Shown here: positions 1 to 15,243 of the stretch, in pieces
How the letters are laid out: every line of letters begins with the position of its first letter
Numbering within the stretch: position 1 is the stretch's first letter
The notes under the pieces: model-generated
Databases searched by the model: none
Seen by the model: the letters and a program-made list of their open reading frames with translations, nothing else
What the model was told of the DNA's origin: nothing
Program-made: the position numbers and the translations under genes
Source of the DNA: Cytobacillus oceanisediminis 2691
Lineage (GTDB): Bacteria; Bacillota; Bacilli; Bacillales; Cytobacillaceae
DNA: 64,000 nucleotides
Reading direction: 5' to 3'
Assembly: GCF_007678455.1 (NCBI RefSeq)
Contig: NZ_VEEP01000002.1
Span: 469,197-533,196, forward strand

Positions 1-758
1 TCAGCCTTTGAAGGCAGCAAGTTATTAATCCTCGCGATTTCTCCCTCTTCTTCATCTTTTTCCAAAATCGTCTTAAAAACCTCACCAAGCGCGAACAGTC
101 CTACGGCGATCGTCAGGAACTCTATCCCCTGATAAAGCCACGGAACATTAAAGGTGAATCTGGCAATACCTGAAACACTATCAATACCAATTGTCCCAAG
201 CAACAATCCAGTAACGGTCATGATCAATGCCTTTGTCACTGATTTTCCGGCCAGGCCGCTGACAGCTCCAAGTCCTAAAAGCATCAATGAAAAGTATTCT
301 GCTGGACCAAATTTTATCGCCACCGATGATAGTGGCTTGGCCAATGCAATAAGGGCGAAAAGCGTAACGATCCCGGCGACAAAGGAACCAATTGCCGCAA
401 TCGATAAGGCACTGCCTGCTCTCCCCTTTTTGGCCATCTGGTAACCGTCCAGCGTTGTGACCACCGAAGAGGATTCTCCTGGTGTGTTCAATAGAATCGA
501 GGTGGTTGAACCTCCATACATGGCTCCATAATAGACTCCCGCAAGTAAAATGATCGCACTGGTGGCAGCGGATTCCGGCGGCAGCCAGCCAGTAGCTGAT
601 GCGGTTACAGGAATAAGCAGCGCTACTCCACTCATCGGCCCAATCCCCGGAAGAACGCCAACTGCTGTCCCAATCAAGACTCCAATGAAGGCAAATATGA
701 GATTATACCAAATAAAAGCTGTTCCAAAGCCTTGAAATAAATATTCAAGTGTACTCAA
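1..758 (-). CDS. tctA: Tripartite tricarboxylate transporter, large permease TctA (3' truncated by window edge)
   Basis: Reading the minus strand from a TTG at 758 gives an uninterrupted hydrophobic protein of more than 250 residues that runs off position 1. It carries the typical TctA start, with a GVLPGIGP segment around residue 37 and a YGGSTTSILLNTPGE block around residues 80-95. TctA proteins are about 500 residues with about 12 membrane spans and form the channel of a periplasmic-binding-protein-dependent, sodium-coupled carboxylate importer. The TTG start is chosen because GGAGG lies 10 bases upstream. It is the last visible gene of a tctC-tctB-tctA operon, 36 bases after tctB. The substrate (citrate or another carboxylate) cannot be told from the sequence. 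Confidence 0.9.
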   Translation of the reverse strand, partial: MSTLEYLFQGFGTAFIWYNLIFAFIGVLIGTAVGVLPGIGPMSGVALLIPVTASATGWLPPESAATSAIILLAGVYYGAMYGGSTTSILLNTPGESSSVVTTLDGYQMAKKGRAGSALSIAAIGSFVAGIVTLFALIALAKPLSSVAIKFGPAEYFSLMLLGLGAVSGLAGKSVTKALIMTVTGLLLGTIGIDSVSGIARFTFNVPWLYQGIEFLTIAVGLFALGEVFKTILEKDEEEGEIARINNLLPSKA

Positions 759-794
759 AATTCTACAACCTCCAGCGGAAAGGCTGCTCCAAAA

Positions 795-1250
795 CTATGA
801 AAGCCAAATTGGCCATCCTGGCAGCGTTCCTTTTAATACTTCTACATACATAAAATAAACAAATCCGGAAAAACAAGCAGATATGATAAGGGAAGTCATC
901 ACCTTAGTGCGTTCCATCGTTTGAAAACAAACAAATAAAAATAAAAACGTTGTGATGACGTACCCGATTGTTTCCAATGTCAAAATATAAACCAATGTAG
1001 CGAAAAAAATGATCAAGAAAGGTTTATACAGTAATTTTTCTTTCGAACTTTGCTGGGTTTTTGCTACCATGGTTTCATAAAACAAACGAATGCTTAACAG
1101 AACAAGAATGATACCAAGTAATAAAGGAAAAATATCAGGACCAACGGAGCTGCCATATGATGAACTCGCAAGCTGTCTGCTCCCAACAATAAAAAGAACA
1201 CCTGTAGCCAAAAATAGTATCGAGGCAATCCGATCGAATTGAATACTCAT
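795..1250 (-). CDS. tctB: Tripartite tricarboxylate transporter, small permease TctB
   Basis: This 151-residue protein has about four membrane spans, with hydrophobic stretches near residues 10-25, 38-56, 75-105 and 118-140. Length, topology and position between tctC and tctA fit TctB, the small membrane subunit of the tripartite tricarboxylate transporter. TctB proteins are poorly conserved, so the family call rests partly on context. AAAGGAG lies just upstream of the ATG. It is separated from tctC by 53 bases that hold a GC-rich hairpin. Confidence 0.85.
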   Translation of the reverse strand: MSIQFDRIASILFLATGVLFIVGSRQLASSSYGSSVGPDIFPLLLGIILVLLSIRLFYETMVAKTQQSSKEKLLYKPFLIIFFATLVYILTLETIGYVITTFLFLFVCFQTMERTKVMTSLIISACFSGFVYFMYVEVLKGTLPGWPIWLS

Positions 1251-1270
1251 TGCTTACTCCTTTCAAGAAT

Positions 1271-1296
1271 GGGGGAAGGGAGGAAAACCCTCCCCC
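1271..1296 (-). promoter_or_regulatory. GC-rich hairpin between tctC and tctB
   Basis: Five-G and five-C runs with an inner GGG/CCC pair around an AAAA loop form a strong stem. On the minus strand no T-run follows the stem, so it is probably an mRNA-stabilising or partial-termination hairpin that favours tctC over tctB and tctA, as expected where a binding protein must be made in excess. That role is inferred. Confidence 0.5.
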
Positions 1297-1303
1297 TTTT
1301 TGG

Positions 1304-2329
1304 TTACTTCTGCATGCCCAGGACTTCTAATAATTGCTGAACCTGGCCTTCCTGGTCTTCCAGGAACTTTTTGAAATCTTCGCCATTCTTATAATCAAGA
1401 TCCCAGCCCTGCGTCTCTACTTCTTTCTTCCACTCTGGGGAGTTTGCGAGCTTTTCAAGTGATTTCTCCCAATAAGCTTTTGCATCATCAGACATTTTTT
1501 CAGGACCAAACACACCGCGCCAAATCGTAAATTCAGCTTCCACTCCCTGTTCTTTTGCTGTTGGAACATCTTTGAAATCACCTGCTAAACGTTCCGCAGA
1601 AGTGACCGCCAATACCCTTACCTTGCCAGCCTTCAAGAATTCCTTAACACTGGAAGCGTCCGTACCAATGACATCAGCGTTACCGCCAAGCAGAGCAGTA
1701 ATCGCTTCTCCGCCGCCATCATAAGAAACATATTTCACTTTAGTCGGATCAACGCCATATTTATAAGCTGGCAGGATAGAAATCAGATGGTCCATCGAAC
1801 CAGGCGCAGATCCGCCGGCAAATGTAAGTTTACTAGGATCCTTTTTTACCTCTTCCAAAACAGATTTCAGGTCTTTGAATTTCGAGTCCTCTTTTACAAC
1901 AATGGCTCCATAATCTTTTGTCAGCTGGGCCAATGGCGTTGTATTTTTGACCCCATATGGGCTGTTCCCTTCTTTTTTCAGATTGTTGATGATAATCGGA
2001 GGTGAATTGACAAAAAGCATCTCATTATTTTCTGCCTGCGCCGTAGCATATTCAGCCATAAACACAGCACCGCCGCCACCCGGCTTATTCTCCACTGTCA
2101 TAGGCTGTTTCACAATCTTTGTTTCACTCAGTACCTTTGTCAATGAACGGGCAGTTAAATCCCATCCGCCGCCAGCTCCAGATGGCGCCACCACCGTAAT
2201 AGCTTTAGTAGGATAATCTGAACCTTCCTTTTTAGCAGAGGATGCTGGAGCATCACTGCTGCAAGCACCCAGGCTAACCGCCAGTGCACCAGCACAAAAA
2301 ACCGCAGAGATTTTTTTCATAGAAAACAT
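1304..2329 (-). CDS. tctC: Tricarboxylate-binding lipoprotein TctC
   Basis: The 341-residue protein has a lipoprotein signal peptide with lipobox LGAC (Cys23), then a mature TctC/Bug-type solute-binding fold (AITVVAPSGAGGGWD near residue 45, GGNADVIGTD near residue 215). It would sit on the outer face of the membrane and deliver a carboxylate to TctA/TctB. AGGGGGAG lies 5 bases before the ATG at 2329. A second ATG three codons in is possible but less well spaced. It is the first gene of the operon and has a cre-like site immediately upstream, so catabolite repression through CcpA is likely. Confidence 0.9.
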   Translation of the reverse strand: MFSMKKISAVFCAGALAVSLGACSSDAPASSAKKEGSDYPTKAITVVAPSGAGGGWDLTARSLTKVLSETKIVKQPMTVENKPGGGGAVFMAEYATAQAENNEMLFVNSPPIIINNLKKEGNSPYGVKNTTPLAQLTKDYGAIVVKEDSKFKDLKSVLEEVKKDPSKLTFAGGSAPGSMDHLISILPAYKYGVDPTKVKYVSYDGGGEAITALLGGNADVIGTDASSVKEFLKAGKVRVLAVTSAERLAGDFKDVPTAKEQGVEAEFTIWRGVFGPEKMSDDAKAYWEKSLEKLANSPEWKKEVETQGWDLDYKNGEDFKKFLEDQEGQVQQLLEVLGMQK

Positions 2330-2342
2330 TTTAACTCCCCCT

Positions 2343-2356
2343 TGTAAGCGTTTTCT
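2343..2356. promoter_or_regulatory. Putative cre site (CcpA) before tctC
   Basis: TGTAAGCGTTTTCT matches the catabolite-responsive element pattern TGNAANCGNNNNCA except at the last base. It lies 14 bases upstream of the tctC start, downstream of any usable promoter, where CcpA would act as a roadblock. Confidence 0.55.
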
Positions 2357-2485
2357 TAATTTTACAAAGTTTTTGAAAATAGGAAAGATTATTCATTTAA
2401 ACAGCATTAAAAACTTAGTTAACATTTTGTTCATTTTGTTCACGGGGGTTAATTTGGTCATTTTATTAAAATACATTCCTTAAAG

Positions 2486-2529
2486 AAAACAAGATGCCTC
2501 CTCTAATACCGAGGGGCATCCTGTTTTCA
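2486..2529 (-). terminator. Stem-loop terminator
   Basis: GAAAACA-AGATGCC pairs imperfectly with GGCATC-C-TGTTTTC, with a T-rich 3' arm on both strands. It lies downstream of the broken gene at 2656-3262 and upstream of the tct promoter, so it probably separates the two. Confidence 0.65.
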
Positions 2530-2655
2530 CATATATCAAACGCCGTTTCACCATTTGAATTACAAGCCAGATTGGCTAAACAAACCGTGGAGACTTCCGC
2601 TGGCCAAATCTTTTTTACTAATTATCATTAGCTGGCTCTATCCCTTGAAACAATA

Positions 2656-3262
2656 CTAATCTTCCAAATAATCCCCATACTTTTCATTTAATTCACCAAT
2701 CATTTTTTTATGTGCTCTTGAATGAACTTTTTCGTAATGCTTAGTTTCTCTATCCTCAAGTCTATGTCTTTCGTTATTATCCTTTTCAAAAGCAAACTTC
2801 CCCATAACCACTCCTTGAATGTTGAAAGAACCTACAGCAGGTCCTTTTTCCGAATCATTCGGTTCGAGAAATAGCATGTATTGTTTATTATCTTCCATCG
2901 GTAAATAACCACTTACACTTAATATCTGATCATGATTTTCATCAAAAGCACTGGTTTCTAATATAGACACTTCTTGATTTTTTTCTATTTTCCGTCCTGT
3001 ATTATTTTTTAATGACTGATTCAACCTTAAAATCTGAAACTGTAAAATAATAATTCGGAAATCCTTCCTCATCTCTATCGATAATTGATTCTCCACTTAT
3101 TTTTTTCCCAATTAAATTTAAGGAGTTTGTTTTTCCATATCATCCAAAAATTCATAAGAATCCTGCAGTTTTCCTTCAGATACTACTACATTAGTTAAAT
3201 CTTTATTACTGTACACATATCCCTCCTACTACTAGAGCCCCTATTAATATTAGTTTTTTCAT
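2656..3262 (-). pseudogene. Multiply frameshifted secreted or lipoprotein-like gene
   Basis: Reading from ATG 3262 (GGAGGAG upstream) gives a hydrophobic signal start MKKLILIGALVVGG and then a stop. Three shifts of frame, near 3208, near 3122 and in the A-run near 3008, rebuild one coherent protein of about 200 residues. It passes through YSNKDLTNVVVSEG, LIGKKISGESIIDRDEEG, FTVSDFKVESVIK and NNTGRKIEKNQEVS and ends ELNEKYGDYLED at 2656. Each segment joins smoothly to the next at the amino-acid level, which is the evidence for decay and not chance. No function is recognised. Frames were followed by eye, so the exact shift bases are approximate. The last segment alone would be called a 146-residue ORF. 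Confidence 0.7.
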
Positions 3263-3430
3263 TAGTGCTCCTCCTAATATGCATAAATCGAATTTATACC
3301 ATTATAGTCATCCGTTTGAGGGTAGATACAGTTATACCAACCATCTGTTTGCTAATGTCCTAAAGTCTTAACGGCAGTTCTAAGGTTTCAATAAAGAATC
3401 GAGAGTTCTTATTTTAATAAACATTTGCAT
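3263..3430. other. AT-rich spacer
   Basis: The stretch from the relic gene to the terminator of the PlcR-like gene holds no convincing reading frame, repeat or hairpin. Confidence 0.4.
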
Positions 3431-3462
3431 TAAAAAAGCTAGAGTAAATAAAACCCTAGCTT
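3431..3462 (-). terminator. Terminator of the PlcR-like gene
   Basis: AAGCTAG and CTAGCTT arms flank an A-rich loop, followed on the minus strand by TTTTTTAATG. It lies about 100 bases after the stop codon at 3566. Confidence 0.7.
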
Positions 3463-3565
3463 CCGCTTGTTCGATCTATTTATAACCACATTTCTTCGGA
3501 TAAAAGGACATCCCCATTCCTTCCAAAATGAATCACAGCCCACGGTGTCTTCTTTCACAAGACCA

Positions 3566-4441
3566 CTAAGTATATTGATGAAGTTTATCAAGAACTGTTT
3601 TGACATAATGCTCTTTCCCATTCATAGCAAAAAGCATACACGCTTTATCCATTAGTTCCTTGCCTTCATGAATGGCTTTTTCCTCTAAAAGTATTAACCC
3701 CTTCTGATACAGCAATTCTCCTAGCAAGTAATTAGATTCATTGTCTAACGCCAATTTTATTCCCTTTTCCGCAATCAGTATAGCCTCCATGTTTTCATTC
3801 AGATTATAATACACTTTACTCAAGTTGTAATAGATTTTTATCAATATCGTAAAGCCAATCGGATATAACAAATTCTTTGAAATATTTAATGCTTCGAGGA
3901 AATATAATACGGCTTGCTCCCACTCTCCCTCTTCACCATACATGATGCCAATACTATTCATGATTTGAATATCCTGTTTCGTCTTCTGAAATGAGCACTT
4001 AAGATTCAATGCATTCATTAACAAGTTAATAGCTTTAGAAAAATCATCTTCTAAGTAATATGTATAAACTCCTTTATGCCAATATAAGAATTGAACCTCC
4101 TCAAGTTTTTTAAAAGACGGATGTTTTTCTAATCGTCTAATTAATTTTTTTACCTCAACATACTCTTTTTTCTTTGTGTACTCTCTAATTTTCATTTTAG
4201 AATGCTCTACAAATTCATATTGTTCTTTACAGATTTGGTTAATAAAATAGTTTGGATCCATCCCAAGCCTATTGGCGATTTTAACCAAAGTATCTATATA
4301 AGGGCTTATTTCGCCTTTTTCTATTTTGCTGATTTGTGATTGACTGCAAATTCCTTCTGCTAGTTCTTTTTGGGTTACATTTAGCTTTACTCTAATTGTA
4401 TGGATTGTATCACCAAGGTTTTTGAAATTGAATTCATTCAT
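3566..4441 (-). CDS. PlcR-like HTH-TPR quorum-sensing regulator (RRNPP family)
   Basis: The 291-residue protein has an N-terminal XRE helix-turn-helix (residues about 12-65, LNVTQKELAEGICSQSQISKIEKGEI), a linker helix, and TPR-like helical repeats to the C-terminus. This is the layout and size of PlcR of the Bacillus cereus group (about 285 residues), whose TPRs bind a secreted, re-imported peptide before the HTH binds promoters. The candidate peptide gene is divergent, 291 bases away, and ends in a PapR-like tail. The start is the ATG after the GGAAGGAG stretch. It sits beside a bacteriocin-like operon in an AT-rich island, so control of that operon is the natural inference. It could instead be a Rap- or NprR-like protein, but length and pairing favour PlcR. 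Confidence 0.75.
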   Translation of the reverse strand: MNEFNFKNLGDTIHTIRVKLNVTQKELAEGICSQSQISKIEKGEISPYIDTLVKIANRLGMDPNYFINQICKEQYEFVEHSKMKIREYTKKKEYVEVKKLIRRLEKHPSFKKLEEVQFLYWHKGVYTYYLEDDFSKAINLLMNALNLKCSFQKTKQDIQIMNSIGIMYGEEGEWEQAVLYFLEALNISKNLLYPIGFTILIKIYYNLSKVYYNLNENMEAILIAEKGIKLALDNESNYLLGELLYQKGLILLEEKAIHEGKELMDKACMLFAMNGKEHYVKTVLDKLHQYT

Positions 4442-4534
4442 AATCTTGACTCCTTCCCATCATCTCAGAGTTTCTTTACCATTTTCCTTCTTCAAGAATA
4501 TTTGGAAATATATTACTTTAACAATAATCATATA

Positions 4535-4560
4535 ACACCTTTCATCCAGAAGAAAGGTGT
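4535..4560. terminator. Hairpin upstream of the PlcR-like gene
   Basis: Perfect 9-base arms ACACCTTTC and GAAAGGTGT flank an 8-base loop, with CTTTTCTATT on the plus-strand side. It may insulate the divergent regulator and peptide genes or be a leader hairpin. No plus-strand gene ends here. Confidence 0.45.
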
Positions 4561-4664
4561 CTTTTCTATTATTAGAAAAATTTCTTCTAAAATAAAATAT
4601 TCTTATATGAATAAAGAACTATAAAAATCATCGCATTTTTACAAATTATTGAATTTCATCAATT

Positions 4665-4678
4665 ACATATTACTATGT
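4665..4678. promoter_or_regulatory. Small palindrome upstream of the PapR-like gene
   Basis: ACATA-TTAC-TATGT is a perfect 5-base inverted repeat 55 bases before the peptide gene. A looser TATG...T.CA match to the PlcR box lies at 4703-4718. Both are only candidates for the binding site of the neighbouring regulator. Confidence 0.3.
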
Positions 4679-4732
4679 TGCACCATCTAAGTTTCTTAAC
4701 ACTATGCTATATTTCAATTAGGAGGGATAAAA

Positions 4733-4852
4733 ATGAAAAACTTATCAAAGATTATTGTAGGACTAACTCTTATAGGCCTTATTACTTTAAACGGAATTAA
4801 TATTGATATCATCGTTTTAGATCCATTGTATGACTTGCCTTTTGAACATTAA
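4733..4852 (+). CDS. PapR-like signalling pre-peptide
   Basis: This 39-codon gene has a strong AGGAGGGA ribosome site 5-6 bases before ATG. The product has a Lys-containing start (MKNLSKIIVG), a hydrophobic export segment and a C-terminus ...LDPLYDLPFEH. PapR, the PlcR-activating pre-peptide of the B. cereus group, is about 48 residues and matures to a C-terminal heptapeptide of the type xDLPFEF or SDLPFEH. The tail seen here shares DLPFEH. The gene is divergent from the PlcR-like gene, whereas papR follows plcR on the same strand. A bidirectional terminator follows 12 bases downstream. Function is inferred; the sequence match at the tail is direct. Confidence 0.75.
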   Translation: MKNLSKIIVGLTLIGLITLNGINIDIIVLDPLYDLPFEH

Positions 4853-4864
4853 AAAACCACATAA

Positions 4865-4900
4865 AATAAGGCTGAACCAAGATGGTTCAGCCTTATTTTT
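4865..4900. terminator. Bidirectional terminator between peptide gene and bacteriocin operon
   Basis: AATAAGGCTGAACC and GGTTCAGCCTTATT form a 14-base perfect stem with A- and T-runs on the two sides. It serves the converging PapR-like gene (+) and the operon ending at 4900 (-). Confidence 0.9.
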
Positions 4901-5142
4901 TATGAAGTTCTTCTTGCTTTAACAGCAATAATTAGTGCACTAGCCAACAGTGCAATATGCATGGAATATAAAACTACTGAGTATTTCGAATCAACAACAG
5001 ACACAGCTGCCAATGTAGAACTCGAAAGGAGAACCAATACAACAATATTTAATCTGATTTTTTTTTTGTTCCTGTTCCTGATTAACAAAAATAATATAAG
5101 ACTAATAGAAATTGCATAAATGATGATTAATAATGTTTCCAT
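4900..5142 (-). CDS. Small membrane protein, candidate bacteriocin immunity factor
   Basis: The 80-residue product has three hydrophobic segments (about residues 3-20, 28-46 and 54-73) separated by Lys/Arg-rich turns. The ATG at 5142 is preferred because AGAAAGGAGAAAT lies just upstream; a longer frame from 5205 has no such site and would overlap the previous gene. It is the last gene of the three-gene operon, 28 bases after the second Cys-patterned pre-protein. Small multi-span proteins at the end of bacteriocin operons often give self-protection, which is the basis of the guess. No homologue is recognised. Confidence 0.6.
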   Translation of the reverse strand: METLLIIIYAISISLILFLLIRNRNKKKIRLNIVVLVLLSSSTLAAVSVVDSKYSVVLYSMHIALLASALIIAVKARRTS

Positions 5143-5170
5143 ACGGTGATTTCTCCTTTCTTGTTTGATT

Positions 5171-5881
5171 TTACCAGTTAAGATAGAAACAAGTTGCAAT
5201 AGCACCAGTACTCATTCCAAGAGCTACTGCGAGACATGGCAGGCAGAGGACTCCAGTGAGACAAGCAATAGCGCAAATATTACCTAATTGCCAGCCAACA
5301 ATAGAAGGGAGACCCAAACATTTGACGAACCCGCTAAAACTAAAGCCCATAGTGGAAATAGCCCCATCCTGGCTGTCAAAGTACTCTGCTGCTGTATAAA
5401 ACGTTTCATCAGTCACTTCGTTGAAAGTTTCCTCACCATTAATATATGCAATTGTTTGGAAAGTATCAATCTCAGATTTCTGGATTAATATCTCTGAATA
5501 AGATTCCACTTTTCCTGGCTTTAGGAAATGCAGAGCTACATTGCTTATTTCATGGTGGCTTTCGCTAGATACAGGAATCGTTACAGAATGAAAGTCATTT
5601 TCCTTATAAGTAAATACTTTAGCATTCTCAAAATCTAATTCAGTAGAATAGATTTTAACTTGTCCTTTTTGAATTTGTTTCTCTGCTCTTTTAACCCATT
5701 TACTCTTTTCCTTCTTATCCGTAACCTCAACAAGTTTTTCTAATTGATATTTCACAGAATCCTCCAGCTGCGCAAGAGGATCATCTGATGTTACCTCAGC
5801 ATTTACTTGACTTTGAGGGGTTGACATAGAAACAAATAGTAAAACAACTAATGAAACTAGAAAACTTTTCTTAAGCCACAC
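5171..5881 (-). CDS. Secreted pre-protein with six-Cys halocin-C8-like C-terminal domain (paralogue 2)
   Basis: This 236-residue protein has a Sec signal peptide (MWLKKSFLVSLVVLL, cleavage expected near residue 28). A charged middle region carries KSKWVKRA and SHHEISNV, and a hydrophobic C-terminal segment of about 50 residues from Cys188 has six cysteines spaced C-x14-C-x3-C-x5-C-x2-C-x14-C. The upstream neighbour has the same spacing except x7 in the middle gap. The layout (long pro-region, Cys-rich hydrophobic tail) recalls halocin C8 precursors, where the C-terminal part is the antimicrobial and the rest gives immunity. That link is an inference. The start is GTG with AAGGAG upstream. It lies 29 bases downstream of the first paralogue. 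Confidence 0.7.
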   Translation of the reverse strand: MWLKKSFLVSLVVLLFVSMSTPQSQVNAEVTSDDPLAQLEDSVKYQLEKLVEVTDKKEKSKWVKRAEKQIQKGQVKIYSTELDFENAKVFTYKENDFHSVTIPVSSESHHEISNVALHFLKPGKVESYSEILIQKSEIDTFQTIAYINGEETFNEVTDETFYTAAEYFDSQDGAISTMGFSFSGFVKCLGLPSIVGWQLGNICAIACLTGVLCLPCLAVALGMSTGAIATCFYLNW

Positions 5882-5910
5882 TATTTTCCAACTCCTTAAT
5901 TATGATAATG

Positions 5911-6651
5911 TTAATCCCAATATTGACCTAGACAAGCCAGTGCTGTACCACCCGTTACACCAATCGCTGCTGTGACACAGACAACACATGCAGTCCCCAA
6001 AGTGATTACACACGTTGCTCCACAAATGTACGATAACCATCTTGCTGCCATTCCTGAAATACCAAGACAATCACCGACTTTATTCCAATCCACACCTAGA
6101 GCGCCTATTTGTCCAGTTGAATTTTCCCGAACTTCTTTTTCAGTCATGAATGGATCCTCTGTAAGCTCGTTAATCTGTTCTTTTCCGTTAACATTCAAAA
6201 GGATATGGAAAGTATCTTGTTCTGACCTCTTAAATTCCATTTCTGTATAGGTTTGCAGCTTTTTAGTTTTTTCATTAAAATAAATGGACACATTGCTGAC
6301 CTCGTGATGGTTACTACTTACAATCGGTATTCCAACAGCAACATAAGGACTATTGTCGATTTTATAAACTTTAGCAGTTCCATAGGAAAGATGCTCTTCC
6401 TTGACACTTACTTTTTTTGTCCCGATGACCTGCATAGCACGTTTTGTCCAAAAGGATTTGTCTTTACCATTTGTAACTTCACTGATTTTCTCTAAGCTTT
6501 CTAGTAACTTAGAATTCGGATCTTGTTTTATCTGATCACCGCTTTCTCTTGGCACATCAGTCGTTGCTTTTACAGTTAAGCCTTCCACATTCATGCTGAA
6601 TAACAGAATAGTTGTCAGTGTGAGTAAAAATACTTTTTTCATTACATTCAT
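5911..6651 (-). CDS. Secreted pre-protein with six-Cys halocin-C8-like C-terminal domain (paralogue 1)
   Basis: This 246-residue protein has a signal peptide (KKVFLLTLTTILLFSM), a soluble middle part with KSFWTKRA, NHHEVSNV and DTFHILLNVNG, and a hydrophobic tail starting at Cys195 with C-x14-C-x3-C-x7-C-x2-C-x14-C. It aligns along its whole length with the next gene, so the pair arose by tandem duplication. GGGGGAAG lies before the ATG. It is the first gene of the operon, with a perfect palindrome 32 bases upstream. A two-component secreted bacteriocin is the most economical reading. No dedicated ABC exporter, protease or modification enzyme is present, so Sec export is assumed. Confidence 0.7.
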   Translation of the reverse strand: MNVMKKVFLLTLTTILLFSMNVEGLTVKATTDVPRESGDQIKQDPNSKLLESLEKISEVTNGKDKSFWTKRAMQVIGTKKVSVKEEHLSYGTAKVYKIDNSPYVAVGIPIVSSNHHEVSNVSIYFNEKTKKLQTYTEMEFKRSEQDTFHILLNVNGKEQINELTEDPFMTEKEVRENSTGQIGALGVDWNKVGDCLGISGMAARWLSYICGATCVITLGTACVVCVTAAIGVTGGTALACLGQYWD

Positions 6652-6682
6652 TTACTTACTTCCCCCTTTTCCATTTTCTTCA

Positions 6683-6702
6683 TATGGTACATTTCTACCA
6701 TA
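6683..6702. promoter_or_regulatory. Perfect palindrome in the bacteriocin promoter
   Basis: TATGGTA-CATTTC-TACCATA has perfect 7-base arms, 32-51 bases upstream of the first bacteriocin-like gene. The half-sites begin TATG and end CATA as in the PlcR box (TATGNA-N4-TNCATA), but the spacing is 4 bases wider. It is a good candidate operator for the adjacent PlcR-like regulator. Confidence 0.5.
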
Positions 6703-6922
6703 CGTAAATTAATCAAATAATCCGAACCTTCCTATTGCTCTTGTGTCATTTCAATTTCTTTTTTCTACTTTATATACTTCATATTACGGAAAGGCTTACC
6801 CTTTTATAGTTTTATAGGAATATTTCCCACTTAAATCATTATCACCACTTCTTGTATAAACTCGAGTAAAACAACTCATTATTTCTAAAAGACACATTAA
6901 TCTTGAACCTGTAAATAATAAA

Positions 6923-6951
6923 AAGGATCCCTTTTCAGCTAAGGAATCCTT
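6923..6951 (-). terminator. Terminator downstream of 7061-7495
   Basis: AAGGAT-C-CCTT pairs with AAGG-A-ATCCTT, followed on the minus strand by TTTTATTATTT. Confidence 0.6.
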
Positions 6952-6989
6952 CATATAATATTAAGAGGTAACGAATGAGATACATTGAT

Positions 6990-7061
6990 AATCCTTATGT
7001 TCTCACAAAAGATAGTATTCTGAACGATGCATGGATTAATTCTAGGCAACCGATAAGGATT
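6990..7061. repeat. Spaced inverted repeat AATCCTTAT / ATAAGGATT
   Basis: Perfect 9-base arms at 6990-6998 and 7053-7061 lie 54 bases apart between a terminator and the stop codon of the next gene. The meaning is unknown. Confidence 0.35.
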
Positions 7062-7495
7062 TAAAGCCTTTTATGATAATCCAGGTCGATATCAATGCTA
7101 TCCAATGCCGGATCATCAAAAGGATGCATTTTTCTTTTATAGTACTTCACACTTTTCCCGTTGACGGCTTCTTCGTAAAGGGTGAGGAACCTAGTGACCG
7201 GGGTTTCTGGCATATCCAATTCCGGTTCGGTTGTATAGCTGAGGAGGTCCTCCTTTTTTGACTCCGCAAAATCATGGATCAGGTCGCTTTTAAAGCCATG
7301 TTTCTCGTAAGTCCTGATGATTTCCACCAGCTGCTTGATTCTTGTTTCCGCCGGAAGGCCAAGGTGATACTCCACTCCTTCTCCTCCATCTGGATACAGA
7401 ACCTTGCTTGTTTCAATTAGCTCCCAGCCTTCTTCAATCAGCCGATTCACACGATTAATCTCTGTATGCACAAAAATCTTCAAATATTGCTTCAT
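7061..7495 (-). CDS. Conserved hypothetical protein
   Basis: The product is a soluble acidic protein of 144 residues, without signal peptide or membrane span. It begins MKQYLKIFVHTEI and contains GWELIETSKVL, the kind of opening seen in short DUF1737-like proteins, but the family is not recognised with certainty. The ATG at 7495 is preferred over a GTG three codons upstream because GGAGG overlaps the GTG and is well spaced for the ATG. It lies 14 bases after the UDG-fold gene on the same strand and is probably co-transcribed with it. Confidence 0.6.
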   Translation of the reverse strand: MKQYLKIFVHTEINRVNRLIEEGWELIETSKVLYPDGGEGVEYHLGLPAETRIKQLVEIIRTYEKHGFKSDLIHDFAESKKEDLLSYTTEPELDMPETPVTRFLTLYEEAVNGKSVKYYKRKMHPFDDPALDSIDIDLDYHKRL

Positions 7496-7509
7496 GCGAG
7501 GCACCTCCG

Positions 7510-8256
7510 TTATTTTTCAAAATACGCTTTCAATGTTTTTTCCATTGCGGCTTTATTTTCAGCGAACTGGCGGTGACGGTGGCCATTCCCTCCTGATGGG
7601 TGCGGAAAACCACTTAGGATGCTTTCAGGTGAAAGGCGGTTGTTGGCAGCCAGAAACGCTAGTACCTTTTCGACGTTCACTCCTAAAGGTATGATCAAAG
7701 GATTTTTCAGGCTTTCAATTTCCCTTGCGAATCCTTGTAGGATATAGTCCCTCAGCAATTCAGTCTTCAGGATGTTCGGGGTCGAGCCACTGTAATTCTT
7801 TCCTTTGTGAAAAACAGGATAGGTAATGACTGATGTAGTATGTACCAGGCTGCTTGCCTCTCCAAACAATTCGCTGGTTGACGACAGCCCAAGATGTTTA
7901 TGTAAATTCAGTTCATCGAGCATCGTAATCAGATTTTTCCTCATCGGCCCTTCAAAGCTCGAATTTTTCTTCACTTCATGAAGAATTGTTTCGTTTTCCG
8001 TTTCCTGGCCTTTAAAATCCAACACGGTTGAATAGGATTTTTTCATCTGGTGCAAGCCAGGGGTGATCCCCGCAATCACCACCTGAGCATGCTCATTCAC
8101 ATGTTCAAAAGGTGCATAATAGATTTCCAGCTGCTTCTTTTCATCCTTATCCAGCAAAAAGGACTCACTGATGAGAGCCTCATCCTCTAAAGGAAGTGAT
8201 AAGGATTGAATTTCCTCTTTAAAACTATTAAATTTCGAAAAAGCTGCAATTGCCAA
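7510..8256 (-). CDS. Uracil-DNA-glycosylase-superfamily protein
   Basis: The 248-residue protein shows the two marks of the UDG fold: a GITPG-type motif near residue 63 (family motif 1, GxxPG) and GFPHPSGGNGHR near residue 217 (HPS motif 2, which holds the DNA in true glycosylases). Motif 1 lacks the usual Asp or Asn that activates water, so activity on uracil is doubtful and it may act on another substrate. The start is TTG, with GGGGG 9 bases upstream; the frame opens at the same place as the promoter region. It is probably in an operon with 7061-7495. Confidence 0.6.
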   Translation of the reverse strand: MAIAAFSKFNSFKEEIQSLSLPLEDEALISESFLLDKDEKKQLEIYYAPFEHVNEHAQVVIAGITPGLHQMKKSYSTVLDFKGQETENETILHEVKKNSSFEGPMRKNLITMLDELNLHKHLGLSSTSELFGEASSLVHTTSVITYPVFHKGKNYSGSTPNILKTELLRDYILQGFAREIESLKNPLIIPLGVNVEKVLAFLAANNRLSPESILSGFPHPSGGNGHRHRQFAENKAAMEKTLKAYFEK

Positions 8257-8394
8257 GACGGTTTACCCCCAAGCTCTCAAGTTGTTTTCCATTATACATG
8301 ATTGATAGAGCCATTTAAGGCGGATGAATAATTTAAAATTGGTAAGAAAGCACCTGCCAATTCTCAACAGACAAGTGCTTCTTTCCGCTAAGGT

Positions 8395-9027
8395 TTACTC
8401 ATTCTCCTCCATATCATCCGGGAACACAATCTGATCAAATTCTTCGCCGGTCGCCTGGTCCTTGACCTTAATCGTCACTTTATAATCATCTTTGTCAGCA
8501 CCATTGAACAGCTGATAGTAGGCTCCGGAAATACCAAGGCCGAATACCGCAAAGCCATCCATGCTATTTTCATAGGTTTTTTTATCTACTTCCAGGGTAA
8601 ATTCAGAGAAGGTTTTATTGTGATTCACATCCTTGATTGAAGCAAAGTCCCCACTCGTCTTCATTTCCTCAAGTGATTCCTGGATGCCTGTTTCAAGCTC
8701 CTTCATCATTTCTTTATGCTTGGATTTGGACATCTTGTAGGTGACGGAACCATCGTCATTCTTGATGACTTCCTTGACGCCTTCCGCTTTCACTTCCTCA
8801 ATGGCACTGTCAATGTCTTCACCTTCAAACATCGATGCAGGTAAGGTCACTTCCACGTTAAAAAGGCCTTTATCCACCTCGACTGAACCTTCATCTTCTG
8901 CTTTGGCTTTATCCCCTTTTCCAGTCTGTTCCGTTTTAGTCGCTTGCCCACTTACTTTTCCCTCTGATGAACATGCTGCAAGCAAGGCGCTAAGTGTTAA
9001 AAGTAACACAAGTACTAGTTTATTCAT
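8395..9027 (-). CDS. Lipoprotein of unknown function
   Basis: The 210-residue protein has a lipoprotein signal with lipobox LAAC (Cys19), a Lys/Glu-rich linker, and a folded part that begins FNVEVTLPASMFEGED. The charged KMSKSKHKEMMKELE stretch near residue 100 looks helical. It would be anchored to the outside of the membrane. AGGAGGAG precedes the ATG. It follows another lipoprotein gene by 26 bases, and the two form a likely operon. It resembles the many Bacillus lipoproteins with no assigned role. Confidence 0.7.
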   Translation of the reverse strand: MNKLVLVLLLTLSALLAACSSEGKVSGQATKTEQTGKGDKAKAEDEGSVEVDKGLFNVEVTLPASMFEGEDIDSAIEEVKAEGVKEVIKNDDGSVTYKMSKSKHKEMMKELETGIQESLEEMKTSGDFASIKDVNHNKTFSEFTLEVDKKTYENSMDGFAVFGLGISGAYYQLFNGADKDDYKVTIKVKDQATGEEFDQIVFPDDMEENE

Positions 9028-9053
9028 GTCAATCTCCTCCTGTTGTGATATCC

Positions 9054-9668
9054 TTACTTCAATTTGATTTCGAACTCGTACTCCTTGGTCTCAGCTTCAA
9101 AATCATCTTCGTCACCCTGGTGCCCGGTAAAACTCATCTTGATCCATTCAATTGCTTCGGCATTACCTCGTTCCAGGTACCAGATGATATTTCCTTCTTT
9201 AATTACACCTTTATCAATTTCTCCTCCAATAGAATCAGACACCCACATATCAGGCATGTCGATCTGTTCACCAGTACTTGTAACCAAAACAGCCTGGTCT
9301 GGATAAAAAGTGAACTTTCCATCTGTCGTATTTTCCATCCTGAACTTTACTCCAACCGCAGAGGCATTAGCATTTTCATCATCCATAGTGGGGGCTTTAT
9401 CACTCACAACGACCTTTTGGACTTCCAATTTCAGTCCATTATAATCATCAGACCATTTGGCGTTATCATAATATGTCCAAATATCTTCCGCCTTTTCTTC
9501 TTCCTCATCTTCTTGATCCTCATCAGCTTTTGATGCCTTATCCCCTGTCTTCGCTTCCGCCTTGTTTGTATCATTCTTTTCCAGCTCATTCTTTGCCGAA
9601 TCTGCTCCACAGGCAGCCAACATGACCATCAGAAAAATGGTTCCTAAAACCAAAAACATCTTTTTCAT
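9054..9668 (-). CDS. Lipoprotein with DUF4352-like domain
   Basis: The 204-residue protein has lipobox LAAC (Cys20) followed by a highly acidic, low-complexity linker (EDQEDEEEEKAED near residue 55). A C-terminal beta-rich domain shows the VxVKFRMENTTDGKFTFYPDQAVLV pattern near residues 108-130, typical of DUF4352-type extracellular immunoglobulin-like modules. Such proteins are surface lipoproteins of unclear role. AAGGAGGATGAACTGGA precedes the ATG. It is the first gene of the two-lipoprotein operon. The 52-bp tandem repeats lie directly upstream of it. Confidence 0.65.
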   Translation of the reverse strand: MKKMFLVLGTIFLMVMLAACGADSAKNELEKNDTNKAEAKTGDKASKADEDQEDEEEEKAEDIWTYYDNAKWSDDYNGLKLEVQKVVVSDKAPTMDDENANASAVGVKFRMENTTDGKFTFYPDQAVLVTSTGEQIDMPDMWVSDSIGGEIDKGVIKEGNIIWYLERGNAEAIEWIKMSFTGHQGDEDDFEAETKEYEFEIKLK

Positions 9669-9771
9669 TCCAGTTCATCCTCCTTGTATTAAATGGGTTA
9701 ATCAATTGATAAAGTCATTTTACAACGTTTTTCCAGCCCACCCTTACCAAAAACGGGAAGGGTCACAAATC

Positions 9772-9972
9772 TGCGACCGTAAGTGATGACTCTTCTTCTC
9801 TTTGGGCGCAAAACCTCGAAAGGTGTGACCGTATTTGACAACGATCCTTTTTTTCGGGCGCAGAACCACGAAAGCTGCGACCGTATTTGATAACGATCCT
9901 TCTTTTCGGGCACAGAACCCTGAAAGCTGCGACCTTAGTTGACAACGCCCCTTCTTTTTGGGCGCAGAAAAT
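9772..9972. repeat. Four tandem copies of a 52-bp minisatellite
   Basis: Units start at 9772, 9824, 9876 and 9928 with TGYGACC. Each contains a GACAACGATCCTTYTTTT-type core and ends GGGCGCAGAACC..GAAAG. Units 2 and 3 are the most alike; the last is cut short near 9972. Because 52 is not a multiple of 3, reading frames across the array change phase in each unit, and several short open frames over it are artefacts. The array lies between the WYL regulator and the lipoprotein operon. Confidence 0.85.
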
Positions 9973-9999
9973 AGAAAAACACCTGCGAGATTGCAGGTG

Positions 10000-11016
10000 T
10001 TACTGATACACTTTATAAAACCTTTCAACCTCTTCTTTTATTCTTTCCACAAGTGTTGGCGGGGTCATGACCTTGGCATCGCTGCCCCAGGTCATCAGCC
10101 ACCTGACGAGTCCATCGCTGATGATGGCTTGGGTGGAAATCCTGAATTTATCGTCTCCGACTGGGCGAATATTTACGCCGCGTCCGAACCGGTCAATCAC
10201 GACATTGATTAAATCCGCGTTAAACTCGATCTCGACCAGCGCTTCTTCCCCGGAATACATATGAAACAATTTTTCAGTATACTTCGAGACATCAAACCCC
10301 GGATCCGGGACAAAGGTTTCCTCCAGGGCCGCAACCTCTCTCATCCGGTCAACACGGTAATGGCGGATTTCCTCAGTCGGCAGGAATTCACCAATCAAAT
10401 AATAAAAGTTATTATGCCACACAAGCGCATATGGCTTTAGCTGATAAAAATTACCGTTATTGCTCAGCTTGAATTTCTTTTCCAGGTTATATCGTCCATA
10501 TTTGAACTGAATATAACGGTTTTCAAGAATCGCCGTGTGTAGCATATGAATTGAATATTTAATTTTCGTATTTTCATTCTTGGAGTTCTCGGATAAAACA
10601 ATCCGATTCCCCAGTTGCTTAGCCTGATGGATGCTTGTCAGCAGCTTGATTTTATCCACCAAATCCTCGGTTTCCTTGGTGGAAATAAATTTCGCGGATG
10701 AAACCGCATCGATCAGCAGGCGCAGCTCATGGATTTCAAACAACCGCTGCTGATGGCTGTAGTACTTCTCCACCCCGTCCTTCTCCTGGTTCACCGTCAC
10801 ATCAAATAAATCGGACTCCTCCAACTCCTTCAAATCATCACGAATTGCCTTTTTTCCGGCATGAATCATAAACTCTTCGTAAAATAAATCCAGAATCCCA
10901 TCCAATTTAAATTGGTTTTCTTCATCTGTATATTTTCTTAACACTTCCTGTAGTTTAATCAGCCGTTGTTTGGAGGAAAGTTTAGTCGTAACAACCTCAT
11001 CCTGTTTTGTGCTCAA
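10000..11016 (-). CDS. WYL-domain transcriptional regulator
   Basis: The 338-residue protein has an N-terminal winged-helix-like region (residues about 18-80, with an HAGKKAIRDDLKELEESDLF recognition segment). A WYL domain follows at about residues 160-240 (YIQFKYGRYNLEKK, then PYALVWHNNFYYLIGE, then HYRVDRM) and a WCX-type C-terminal part. WYL proteins sense nucleic acids or small ligands and control DNA repair and defence genes among others. The start is TTG with AAAGGAGTG upstream. The array of 52-bp repeats begins just after its stop codon. Its target is unknown. Confidence 0.85.
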   Translation of the reverse strand: MSTKQDEVVTTKLSSKQRLIKLQEVLRKYTDEENQFKLDGILDLFYEEFMIHAGKKAIRDDLKELEESDLFDVTVNQEKDGVEKYYSHQQRLFEIHELRLLIDAVSSAKFISTKETEDLVDKIKLLTSIHQAKQLGNRIVLSENSKNENTKIKYSIHMLHTAILENRYIQFKYGRYNLEKKFKLSNNGNFYQLKPYALVWHNNFYYLIGEFLPTEEIRHYRVDRMREVAALEETFVPDPGFDVSKYTEKLFHMYSGEEALVEIEFNADLINVVIDRFGRGVNIRPVGDDKFRISTQAIISDGLVRWLMTWGSDAKVMTPPTLVERIKEEVERFYKVYQ

Positions 11017-11144
11017 CGATAACTCACTCCTTTATGTTTGCTCCGTCGTATAATTGTCAATATTAGGATAACATGATTCAACTGAATTTTTTCAGCTTTT
11101 TTCCATTTACCTTCACACATTAAGACCTCCCCAACAGCAATAGA

Positions 11145-11176
11145 AAAAGCAATGGAATTTAGTCTCCATTGCTTTT
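11145..11176 (-). terminator. Terminator of the oxidoreductase gene
   Basis: AAAAGCAATGGA and TCCATTGCTTTT make a 12-base perfect stem followed on the minus strand by TTCTATT. A near copy of the same hairpin lies at 61073-61103. Confidence 0.8.
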
Positions 11177-11275
11177 ATGATCATCCTATTAATTTTTATA
11201 GCCAAAGCTTCCCATTGTTAGTCACCGCGCAATGAGGATACAAAGACGTTTTTCACGTCCTCCTAATTTCCCTAT

Positions 11276-12268
11276 TCACCACCACTCACCCGGATACTTC
11301 AATCCCCACTGCCCCCTGATTTCATCCATCAGCTTCATGATTTTCAAGGATTCATCAAGCGGCACGACTGGGCTTTCTAACAGTCCTTGATTCAGGCATC
11401 TTCCTACTTCTTCTATTTCAAATGCATATCCTGCTGATTGCCGGTCATCCTTGAATGTCTCTGCTTCCTCACCATTCTTATATAAGCAGGCAGATTTGGC
11501 ACTATGGAAAGATGGAATTCGAATAGATCCTTCTGTTCCATAGATGTGAGCTTCATTCGTTAAATCAATCCGGAATGCCCCATTGAGGGTAGCGGTTTTT
11601 CCAGAAGGATAGGACATGAGAATGGAAAACTGTTCATCGACACCCGTTTCACCAATATGTGCCGTACTCAAGATTTTCTCTGGGTTGGTTCCGAAGATCA
11701 TGGTTGCAAAGGTTACTGGATAAATCCCTACATCAAGCAAGGCCCCTCCACCAAGGGCCGGATTCAGCAATCGGCGCTCGGGTTCCCACGGTGCACGGAA
11801 GCCAAAATCCGCTTTCACCATCAGGACTTCACCAATCTCCCCGCTGTCGATCCATTCTCTCACTTTTAAAATCGGCGGCAGGAACTTTGTCCACATTGCC
11901 TCCATCAAGAAAAGCTTTTGCTCTCTGGCAAACTGAATGACTTCTTCCAGCTCTCCGCTATTGATGGTAAAAGGCTTCTCGCAAAGCACAGCCTTGCCAG
12001 CACGAAGACAGGCCATTGCATTTTCTTTGTGAAAAGGATGCGGCGTCGCAATGTAAATGGCATCGACATCCGGATCCTGCACCAGTTCTTCGTAGCTTCC
12101 ATAAGCCCTGGCAATGCCATGCTCCTCCGCAAACTTTTCCGCACTCTCTTTTGTACGAGAACCAACTGCAAGCTTCTCGGTATTTTTAGCAAACTCTAAA
12201 TCCCTCGCGAATGCACTGGCGATTCCACCTGTTCCTAAAATCCCCCACTTGATCACTTTTCCGCCCAT
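11276..12268 (-). CDS. Gfo/Idh/MocA-family NAD(P)-dependent oxidoreductase
   Basis: The product has 330 residues. The N-terminal Rossmann fold carries VIKWGILGTGGIASAFA (GxGxxA NAD(P) motif) and the family signature CEKPFTIN near residue 100 with the conserved Lys. The C-terminal alpha/beta domain includes GGGALLDVGIYPV. These enzymes oxidise or reduce sugars, inositols and trans-dihydrodiols; this subgroup (MEAMWTKFLP, GGGALLDVG) resembles dihydrodiol or glucose-fructose oxidoreductase-like members. The substrate cannot be assigned. ATG at 12268 is chosen because AAGGAG lies 12 bases upstream; a TTG at 12280 abuts that site. It stands alone. Confidence 0.85.
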   Translation of the reverse strand: MGGKVIKWGILGTGGIASAFARDLEFAKNTEKLAVGSRTKESAEKFAEEHGIARAYGSYEELVQDPDVDAIYIATPHPFHKENAMACLRAGKAVLCEKPFTINSGELEEVIQFAREQKLFLMEAMWTKFLPPILKVREWIDSGEIGEVLMVKADFGFRAPWEPERRLLNPALGGGALLDVGIYPVTFATMIFGTNPEKILSTAHIGETGVDEQFSILMSYPSGKTATLNGAFRIDLTNEAHIYGTEGSIRIPSFHSAKSACLYKNGEEAETFKDDRQSAGYAFEIEEVGRCLNQGLLESPVVPLDESLKIMKLMDEIRGQWGLKYPGEWW

Positions 12269-12486
12269 AGTTTCATCCAACTCCTTAAGTATCTAGTAGC
12301 CCAATTGGGATCAAACCTTGTTCGTCCATTATACTATTAAGTTTTTTCACAAGGACACCGGGAAGGTTTTTGCTGTCCGCTTGCTCTTTTAGAGTAAAGC
12401 TGGGAACTTCCCTATAACTCATCAAGTCTAAGGAAGGCTCTCATTGGAAAGAATTCTACTAAAAGCTAGAAGAGGTTTTTTCAGAA

Positions 12487-13002
12487 ATGTATTTATTAGT
12501 GGTTATTGTTGTTTATATCATATTTGCAATAAAATTCGTTAAGTGGAAAAAGTGGAAAGAGTACTACCCAACAATTCAGTTCTATATTATCTGTAACCTT
12601 CTGTATAACTTCCTCTTCTATCAACATACTTTATGGAAGTATAAAGCTGTTACAGTAGACTGGTTAAACCACACTCTGATCGAGATTGCCTTCACATTTT
12701 TCATTATCCCTGTCGTCTTGATGCTTTATCTTGAATATTTTCCAAAAGAAAAAGGCAGAGGATTTTTGTATTTGATGGTCTGGGTGGCCTATTTCTCTGT
12801 GATTGAATATCTGTTTAAAACAAAGGGACTCTTTGTTTATGAAAATGGCTGGAGTACCTGGTGGTCTTTATTGTTTAACATCATAACGTTTACTGTCATT
12901 CGGATCCACTACAAAAACGCTCTGGCAGCATTCCTAGTGTCGGCACCCATTATTGCGATTCTCCTTTTGTTTTTTCATCCAGCGTTACATGATTTGAAAT
13001 AG
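12487..13002 (+). CDS. CBO0543-type integral membrane protein
   Basis: The 171-residue protein has about five membrane spans, with conserved features of the CBO0543 family of Firmicutes: NLLYNFLFY near residue 40, the central WLNHTLIE and the aromatic YENGWSTWWSL near residue 118. The function is unknown. GAAGAGG lies upstream of the ATG. It is followed 11 bases later by a 32-codon membrane peptide gene with an excellent ribosome site, probably in the same transcript. Confidence 0.75.
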   Translation: MYLLVVIVVYIIFAIKFVKWKKWKEYYPTIQFYIICNLLYNFLFYQHTLWKYKAVTVDWLNHTLIEIAFTFFIIPVVLMLYLEYFPKEKGRGFLYLMVWVAYFSVIEYLFKTKGLFVYENGWSTWWSLLFNIITFTVIRIHYKNALAAFLVSAPIIAILLLFFHPALHDLK

Positions 13003-13013
13003 GAGGTGATTCG

Positions 13014-13112
13014 ATGGATTCACTGTCCACCCCCTTATTCCTGTTTCTACTGTTTTCCATATACATAGGCATGGCTCTTTACCTGGAGAAACTGAGGAGG
13101 AGAAAAAAATAA
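13014..13112 (+). CDS. Small single-span membrane protein (32 residues)
   Basis: The ATG follows a perfect AGGAGGTGAT ribosome site at 13001-13010, directly after the CBO0543-family stop. The product is one hydrophobic helix (STPLFLFLLFSIYIGMALYL) ending in the basic tail EKLRRRKK, so it should sit in the membrane with its C-terminus inside. It is too short for most gene finders. A terminator-like hairpin follows at once. The role is unknown; a partner of the preceding membrane protein is possible. Confidence 0.65.
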   Translation: MDSLSTPLFLFLLFSIYIGMALYLEKLRRRKK

Positions 13113-13113
13113 A

Positions 13114-13140
13114 AGGTTCCGCTGTCTCAGCAGGAAACCT
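13114..13140 (+). terminator. Terminator-like hairpin
   Basis: AGGTTCC-GCTG and CAGC-AGGAAACCT pair imperfectly after the small membrane gene. The GGTTCCGCTGTC part matches the GGGACGGTTC repeat family listed elsewhere. Confidence 0.5.
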
Positions 13141-15224: not shown

Positions 15225-15243
15225 TTAGAGAGCTGGGGGATTC

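Follow-up and report, generated by a model that had tools for sequence, protein, structure and literature searches.

A PlcR-like receptor gene and a divergent PapR-like peptide gene beside a bacteriocin-like operon of Cytobacillus oceanisediminis 2691: a probable quorum-sensing pair with its own operator

The window analyzed here, a stretch of 64,000 nucleotides from the genome of Cytobacillus oceanisediminis 2691 (contig NZ_VEEP01000002.1, positions 469,197 to 533,196), carries a gene for a PlcR-like transcription regulator and, adjoining it in divergent orientation, a gene for a 39-residue PapR-like peptide. A bacteriocin-like operon faces the peptide gene in convergent orientation, with a 37-bp inverted repeat between them. 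Divergent layout and neighboring operon are both as described in an earlier first-pass annotation of this DNA. Receptor and peptide genes very probably form a working peptide-receptor pair, which belongs to a Mesobacillus-centred subfamily within the PlcR superfamily. The elements of the pair are listed with their positions in the window; the eight clade loci are introduced below.

3566 to 4441, minus strand: receptor gene, coding for a 291-residue RNPP/PlcR-type transcription regulator with a helix-turn-helix (HTH) domain and five tetratricopeptide repeats (TPRs), according to family profiles, phmmer, and AlphaFold2 with Foldseek
4598 to 4613, no strand: operator TATTCTTATATGAATA (TATTC-N6-GAATA), an exact palindrome in 8/8 clade loci, 119 bp before the peptide start codon
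4705 to 4713, plus strand: extended -10 element TGCTATATT of the peptide gene, TGNTATA-type, in 8/8 clade loci
4720 to 4726, plus strand: ribosome binding site AGGAGGG of the peptide gene, read directly
4733 to 4852, plus strand: gene for the PapR-like signal peptide precursor of 39 residues, MKNLSKIIVGLTLIGLITLNGINIDIIVLDPLYDLPFEH, assigned from sequence and tail conservation
4829 to 4849, plus strand: predicted mature signal YDLPFEH, its tail being conserved across loci
4863 to 4899, no strand: 37-bp inverted repeat with a T-run (minus-strand self-match), a probable two-way terminator between the peptide gene and the bacteriocin operon

The receptor matches PF18768 RNPP_C (E 2.2e-22; 80 bits against a cut-off of 26.5) and HTH_3 (E 2e-13), with TPR_2 and TPR_8 also above cut-off. 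Its size and TPRs lie within the range given for RNPP/RRNPP receptors in PMC10075063 (about 250-500 residues with TPRs). The closest solved relative by sequence is PlcR (2qfc; phmmer E 1.5e-18, residues 7-286), at about 28% identity; a profile built from six receptor sequences matched PlcR over its full length (E 9.5e-33) and matched Rgg, ComR, and PrgX in the N-terminal part alone. When the AlphaFold2 model (predicted local distance difference test 90.5; alignment input of 11 receptors) was submitted to Foldseek, the best five PDB matches were all PlcR chains (2qfc with TMq 0.81, 3u3w with E 3.4e-12). According to this model the receptor has a PlcR-like fold, and the HTH-TPR protein of PlcR size described in the first-pass annotation is confirmed. 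Family clustering, a check proposed there, placed the receptor with peptide-binding RNPP regulators.

N159 and N201 have roles in the peptide pocket of PlcR. By pairwise alignment, K90, K92, N162, N206, and Y279 of the receptor correspond to K87, K89, N159, N201, and Y275 of PlcR. The PapR glutamate is contacted by K89, Q237, and Y275 (PMC6568020, which also mentions an earlier model with K87 and K89 as these contacts); the counterparts are K92, E242, and Y279, so that two of the three contacts are kept as judged from the pairwise alignment alone.

Relatives were sought in a genus set (21 genomes of the GTDB genus containing Mesobacillus subterraneus, with the own genome as G000 and a second genome of the same species as G006) and in a family set of 193 genomes. 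PlcR-like receptors are common there, being found in 20 of the 21 genus genomes at E 1e-20 and in 37 of the 193 family genomes at E 1e-60; PMC12700828 refers to a Bacillaceae PlcR clade. The first-pass annotation had placed the pair outside its usual setting; it does lie outside the Bacillus cereus group, but its rarity was overstated. While a search of genome contigs with the single receptor returned no relative, an alignment-based search returned five named loci. A close receptor is present in 6/21 genus genomes (G000, G014, G019, G011, G010, and G004) and was not found in the same-species genome G006. The loci referred to by strain are those of Bacillus sp. ISL-45 (L034), M. subterraneus MER TA 170 (L035), and Bacillus sp. 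REN3 (L036, genome G011); further members of the clade are Bacillus sp. OV322 (L110) and M. maritimus MER TA 152 (L111, genome G094, classed in another genus). In G010 the receptor gene lies in two pieces around a transposase-like open reading frame (by eye; L037:5549-8265), and in G004 codons 53-233 are missing, with the remaining parts in different frames (L038:6294-6619). The peptide genes of both are intact; these two strains have probably kept the signal and lost the response.

In an IQ-TREE tree of 23 receptors, the six clade receptors that are intact fall into a single group (83/69; together with G060 100/99), the five others being 46-59% identical to that of the window. The tree contains a single B. 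cereus-group PlcR, that of B. thuringiensis (residues 4-282); it clusters with the M. subterraneus receptor L041 (100/100), apart from the window clade. The L041 receptor (L041:5548-6450, minus strand; match to PlcR with E 4.2e-44) is itself part of a PlcR-PapR-like pair outside the B. cereus group: it has a divergent peptide gene ending in DYDLPYEN (L041:6622-6726, plus strand), and the PlcR-box sequence TATGAAAAATTTCATA lies between the two (L041:6471-6486). Other PlcR-like pairs occur as well. The own genome has a second PlcR-like receptor on contig C455 (L043:5256-6143), about 31% identical to that of the window and with relatives in the majority of the 21 genus genomes; behind it, a 125-residue open reading frame (L043:6185-6562) contains seven tandem copies of the (A/G)(D)LPSQH type and would be an unusually repetitive pheromone precursor. 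A further pherotype is seen in G012 and G003, where divergent peptides end in DLPNQH (L039:5632-5754 and L040:5008-5124, both minus strand) and the receptors are about 35-40% identical.

The 39-residue precursor has an export-type N-terminus by eye (basic residues, then a hydrophobic stretch). Its tail follows the PapR form, (D)LPFE with an aromatic residue or His, and DLPFEH matches the end of PapR-IV, SDLPFEH (PMC8140105), in all six residues, in agreement with the first-pass annotation; the length of seven residues given for the predicted mature signal was taken from PapR7. A degenerate pattern for the coded tail D-L-P-F-E-H-stop matched in 5/193 family genomes, all five in one genus and all adjoining a close receptor, and the reversed control pattern had 0 matches in the same 193 genomes. 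Because every match lies beside the receptor and the control is empty, the DLPFEH tail is not due to chance. Tail conservation in related genomes had also been named as a check: DLPFEH is found in five of the clade loci, ELPYEH in REN3 and in OV322, and DLPYEH in M. maritimus. The wider pattern D-L-P-F/Y-E-H/N-stop matched in 8 genomes among 397 drawn from the order and gave, beyond the known loci, one more divergent receptor-peptide pair, that of G333 from another family. PapR-like tail matches at L094 and L096 have no receptor homologue within the 3-kb locus. Of nine G438/G498 loci that share one repeated match, L097 and L098 were likewise without a receptor homologue, and these two are taken as unrelated repeats.

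Operator and extended -10 of the peptide gene keep a fixed spacing. The exact palindrome TATTC-N6-GAATA precedes the peptide gene in all eight clade loci, with a gap to the start codon (taken as the Met before KK/KN) of 119-124 bp in seven of them and of 131 bp in OV322. This distance stays near-constant although the receptor gene changes position (in REN3 it is not divergent). Again in 8/8 loci, an extended -10 matching TGNTATATT is placed 106-108 bp after the first base of the operator (variant TGGTATAGT in M. maritimus; TGGTATATA in OV322, with an additional TGTTATATT at +116), and the sequence in between is little conserved outside two near-identical pairs. In the window, the exact operator is a single copy. 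It is quite likely that the receptor activates the peptide promoter via 4598-4613.

This operator is not that of PlcR. The PlcR box, described as ATGhAwwwwTdCAT with an essential G4 (PMC2464732), has the same 16-bp span but other half-sites, and we thus regard the operator as different; the site at the peptide promoter lacks both G4 and A6. None of the TATG-N6to14-CATA sites in window positions 1-16000 is a PlcR box (TATGNAN4TNCATA).

Related promoter layouts were seen in other family genomes. Peptide genes ending in LELPSMH and LELPFEH (L133:1478 and L150:6232, both minus strand) have the half-matching boxes TATTCCTAAAGTTATA and TATTCCTATATTCATA, spaced from a -10-like element (6/8) much as in the clade, a hint that this layout predates the clade. 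In G053, G054, G073, and G076 (L134:2866 on the plus strand, L135, L137, and L138), TATTCCTATAGTTATA with TGTTATGAT at +107 adjoins PlcR-like receptors; downstream of the site in G053 is a gene for a 105-residue protein of unknown function, and G073 has this protein too.

The bacteriocin operon and the sites upstream of it comprise the following features.

6807 to 6822, minus strand: near-operator TATTCCTATAAAACTA, 14/16 to TATTCCTATAAGAATA, 155 bp before the start codon of precursor 1, rank 3 of 63,985 window positions
6707 to 6715, minus strand: possible -10 element TGATTAATT, 6/8 matches, at +107 from the near-operator (composite scan)
6683 to 6702, no strand: 20-bp palindrome TATGGTA-N6-TACCATA with 7-bp perfect arms, over the probable start site of the operon
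5911 to 6651, minus strand: secreted precursor 1, a halocin-C8-like/Gpos_C8_like bacteriocin precursor (TIGR04450 E 0.0065, below cut-off)
5171 to 5881, minus strand: secreted precursor 2, with a Cys-rich C-terminal part (6 Cys by eye), 34% identical to precursor 1; phrog_33667 (unknown function) E 2.7e-8
4900 to 5142, minus strand: small membrane protein of 80 residues, a candidate immunity or accessory protein, 94% identical in G004

Family matches of these proteins are weak or of unknown function. Precursor 1 scores 16.1 bits against TIGR04450, under the curated cut-off of 27 bits, and its G004 copy scores 23 bits against the halocin C8 precursor-like family NF040679 (E 4.8e-5), under the cut-off of 200 bits. 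By eye, each precursor ends in a hydrophobic part that contains six cysteines. In G056, a homologous operon (L090:4221-6223) is followed by a thioredoxin-like and then a disulfide-oxidoreductase-like gene, with which disulfide-bonded products would fit; an 83-residue protein resembling the small membrane protein stands behind this homologue (by eye).

The first-pass annotation had pointed to a promoter at 6652-6720. The palindrome 6683-6702 does lie there, just below the candidate -10; it is kept in G004 (L038:3980) and was not found in the loci L090-L093 of the bacteriocin homologues. It was ruled out as the operator of the pair by its other length, its other half-site, and its absence from L090-L093, and is probably the site of a different regulator. 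The better candidate is the near-operator 6807-6822, which a leave-one-out matrix ranks second within the first 16 kb and which is identical in G004 (L038:3860), there 211 bp before precursor 1. We lean towards the view that the receptor also controls the bacteriocin operon in the window strain. The local action suggested by the first-pass annotation is plausible, and control of the adjacent operon is likely.

We searched for the complete grammar, a box score of at least 8 and a -10 with at least 7/8 matches at +105 to +109, on both strands of 1.93 Mb of partly redundant loci. This composite scan returned ten unique places: the eight peptide promoters, from which the motif had been built, and two operon promoters that had not been used to build it. 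In OV322 (L110), an exact operator with TGCTATAGT at +106 precedes an operon for an ATP-binding cassette (ABC) transporter, an ABC-2 permease, and a condensation-peptidyl carrier protein. In M. maritimus (L111/L122), a weak box (10.5) with a perfect TGCTATATT at +107 lies upstream of a lactococcin-972-like operon, the -10 being about 325 bp before the bacteriocin gene; this gene is below the cut-off of TIGR01653 (18.7 of 32.1 bits), and the ABC gene passes TIGR03608.

An antimicrobial or biosynthetic operon lies near the pair in six of the eight clade loci, if the M. subterraneus operon of unknown product is counted. The types are halocin-C8-like (two), lactococcin-972-like (two), ABC/nonribosomal peptide synthetase, and aminotransferase. 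An exact operator precedes the neighboring operon in 2/8 loci (REN3 and OV322) and a composite promoter in 2/8 (OV322 and M. maritimus); a one-mismatch site is present in one locus and 14/16 sites in two. The second exact operator of REN3 (L036:7578-7593) is 70 bp before a lactococcin-972 gene (PF09683 E 2.4e-7), with downstream genes just under the cut-off of TIGR01654 and over that of TIGR03608. Matches to TIGR01654, the lactococcin-972-associated membrane protein, occur in 3/21 genus genomes, none over the cut-off, and the one in REN3 lies beside the pair. In M. subterraneus (L035) the one-mismatch operator precedes an operon of aminotransferase, flavin adenine dinucleotide, and GNAT type. 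No antimicrobial operon was recognized beside the pairs of ISL-45 and G010, and none of 11 other receptor loci (L140-L150) was recognized as bacteriocin-linked (by eye, from the first 60 residues of the neighbors).

Two more distant pairs stand beside clusters of the thiazole/oxazole-modified microcin (TOMM) type. On plasmid pBpOF4-01 of Alkalihalophilus pseudofirmus OF4 (L119:1538-5885), a PlcR-like receptor and a divergent peptide ending in LDLPYIHT adjoin such a cluster, with a Cys/Gly-rich precursor and annotated SagB-type and YcaO genes. In G333 (L112:1244-6376), a PlcR-like receptor has a divergent peptide ending in NDLPYEH, the cluster having been recognized by eye.

Comparison with G006 and G004 bears on the mobility of the pair and its neighboring operon.

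2456 to 12813, no strand: segment absent at the same place in G006, which has 228 bp instead (blastn and reading of the junctions)

In G004, pair and bacteriocin operon (the equivalent of window 3560-6955 without the middle of the receptor) are 84-94% identical by segment and are flanked by sequences matching window positions 62229 and 62257, thus at a different place. Because G006 is without the segment and the G004 copy is elsewhere, pair and operon move, or are moved, as a unit. No integrase or terminal repeats were identified, though no search with a dedicated tool was made for them.

As the best explanation of the whole, and on balance a probable one, we propose an RNPP quorum-sensing pair that forms its own PlcR-superfamily subfamily and serves autoinduction and most likely control of the adjacent bacteriocin operon. 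After export, the 39-residue precursor would be processed to a C-terminal peptide of about the sequence YDLPFEH, which the cell would take up again and the receptor would bind in its TPR groove. A peptide-loaded receptor dimer may then bind the 16-bp operator TATTC-N6-GAATA and activate the promoter that has its extended -10 about 107 bp further downstream, resulting in positive feedback on the peptide gene. The adjacent two-precursor halocin-C8-like operon would most likely be switched on via the near-operator 6807-6822, with a second, other regulator acting at the palindrome 6683-6702. In related bacteria, the module would travel with different antimicrobial operons or become attached to them. 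Processing, import, dimer binding, activation as opposed to repression, and control of the bacteriocin operon are all steps that we infer.

The pair probably works like PlcR-PapR of the B. cereus group, yet it is not PlcR-PapR. The two systems share an HTH and five-TPR receptor of similar size, a presumably exported precursor with the pheromone at its C-terminus, a 16-bp palindromic operator, and probable autoinduction. In contrast to PlcR-PapR, the operator is TATTC-N6-GAATA instead of TATGNA-N4-TNCATA, the peptide gene is divergent (convergent in REN3) with an operator and promoter of its own, and the neighbors are often antimicrobial operons, whereas PlcR has a scattered virulence regulon. 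Halocin C8-type precursors (TIGR04450 and NF040679) resemble those of the window in being long and secreted, with a hydrophobic Cys-rich C-terminal part, but here two related precursors are in tandem and scores are below the curated cut-offs. A PlcR-superfamily receptor that controls an adjacent lanthipeptide cluster is known from Streptococcus pneumoniae, where TprA of the TprA/PhrA system is a repressor; receptor, peptide, and host are all different here. For the regulated cluster, Hoover et al. (2015) is cited in PMC10075063. PlcRa-PapRa of B. cereus likewise consists of a PlcR paralogue with its own short peptide, CSIPYEY, but its description in PMC3519770 reports no palindrome for PlcRa targets and gives abrB2, not a bacteriocin, as the direct target. 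RRNPP_detector inferred 196 RRNPP pairs next to biosynthetic gene clusters, 25 of them in Bacillaceae (PMC10075063). The kind of inference, a peptide-receptor pair beside an antimicrobial cluster, is the same; those are co-location calls within antiSMASH regions, whereas the subfamily described here adjoins several clusters unrelated to each other, which are preceded by a shared operator and, in two cases, by the promoter spacing as well. PlcR relatives are also treated in PMC12700828 and PMC9765709. Among the literature matches listed, no title or abstract concerned this pair, its operator, or Mesobacillus PapR-like signals, and the RRNPP_detector tables may list these loci. Quorum-linked antimicrobial clusters are thus already known, and what is new is a variant with its own operator.

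Several observations weigh against the explanation proposed here. The near-operator before the window's bacteriocin operon is imperfect (14/16), its -10 has only 6/8 matches and is poorer, not kept, in G004, and in the window ranking the site ties with an unrelated one of equal score at 38712. Relaxing the composite scan to 6/8 for the -10 gives 17 further unique places, mostly at unrelated spots, and the window bacteriocin promoter is one of them. The operon boxes of REN3 and M. subterraneus have no matching -10 at +107, and a site within a gene of the M. subterraneus operon scores slightly above the operon site. A site at 8751 in G010 scores above the bacteriocin site of the window (14.85 vs. 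13.48, leave-one-out), with no comparable site in the ISL-45 locus. G004 has retained peptide and bacteriocin operon despite its damaged receptor. In G056, no such receptor was seen in 8.0 kb around the bacteriocin operon, and this genome is not among the 37 with a receptor. All 21 genus genomes, with or without the receptor, have 1-5 sites each that fit TATTCNWWWWNGAATA (reversed control, 0-2 sites per genome), and TATTCTTTTTTGAATA occurs in 20/21 irrespective of the receptor (e.g., G000:C444:39589-39604); boxes alone as a genome-wide regulon are ruled out, as they are also found in receptor-free genomes. The receptor, finally, has E242 in the place of PlcR Q237 (pairwise alignment).

Some of these points would also fit a self-contained autoinducing loop, perhaps with distant targets, beside a bacteriocin operon that is a fortuitous or co-inherited neighbor and is controlled by another factor via the palindrome 6683-6702. 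The window has its sole exact operator in front of the peptide gene; the own genome's three further exact sites all recur with identical sequence in receptor-free G006 (matched by sequence, not by position); the palindrome with its perfect arms is kept in G004; and two pairs have no recognized antimicrobial neighbor. Against such a loop speak four types of antimicrobial or biosynthetic operon beside clade pairs, two preceded by exact operators, and the joint occurrence of pair and bacteriocin operon in two genomes at two places; we consider it unlikely, though it is the most serious alternative. That the receptor is a repressor released by the peptide, instead of a peptide-dependent activator, is distinctly improbable. 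Some RNPP regulators, namely PrgX and some Rgg proteins, do repress, and with operators 18-27 bp before the receptor start codon in 5/8 clade loci the receptor may repress itself. However, the operator is about 100 bp upstream of the peptide-promoter -10, which is an activator's place, its distance is fixed to the peptide promoter and not to the receptor, and PlcR, the nearest solved relative, activates (PMC2464732). The first-pass annotation had thought of a re-wired version of the pair; in its strict form, this view would make it a true PlcR-PapR acquired from the B. cereus group. Although the PapR-IV tail and the similar size and fold would agree with this, the low identity, the PlcR branch beside L041 (as seen with a single B. 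cereus-group PlcR), the grouping of five other receptors with that of the window, and an operator that deviates from the PlcR box at essential positions speak against it, and we regard such an origin as very improbable.

Under the proposed quorum-sensing pair with its own operator, a broader meaning can be put forward tentatively. One PlcR-superfamily subfamily with a fixed promoter grammar may be a portable quorum switch that has repeatedly been coupled to unrelated antimicrobial operons, each weapon gaining a copy of the operator; in this reading, some would have gained, beyond the operator copy, the whole grammar of 16-bp operator, about 107 bp, and extended -10. The relatives beside TOMM clusters in other families (G333 and the OF4 plasmid) suggest that the habit of coupling is older than the subfamily. 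If this is true, pherotype variation (DLPFEH, ELPYEH, and DLPYEH) would decide who kills with whom, and operator plus spaced -10 would be a searchable signature for responding operons. The clade would offer a natural series for how a quorum circuit re-attaches to new outputs, in which signal-retaining strains with damaged receptors (G004 and G010) could be compared with intact ones, and a diffusible peptide of about seven residues could wake silent bacteriocin or natural-product operons in many Bacillaceae.

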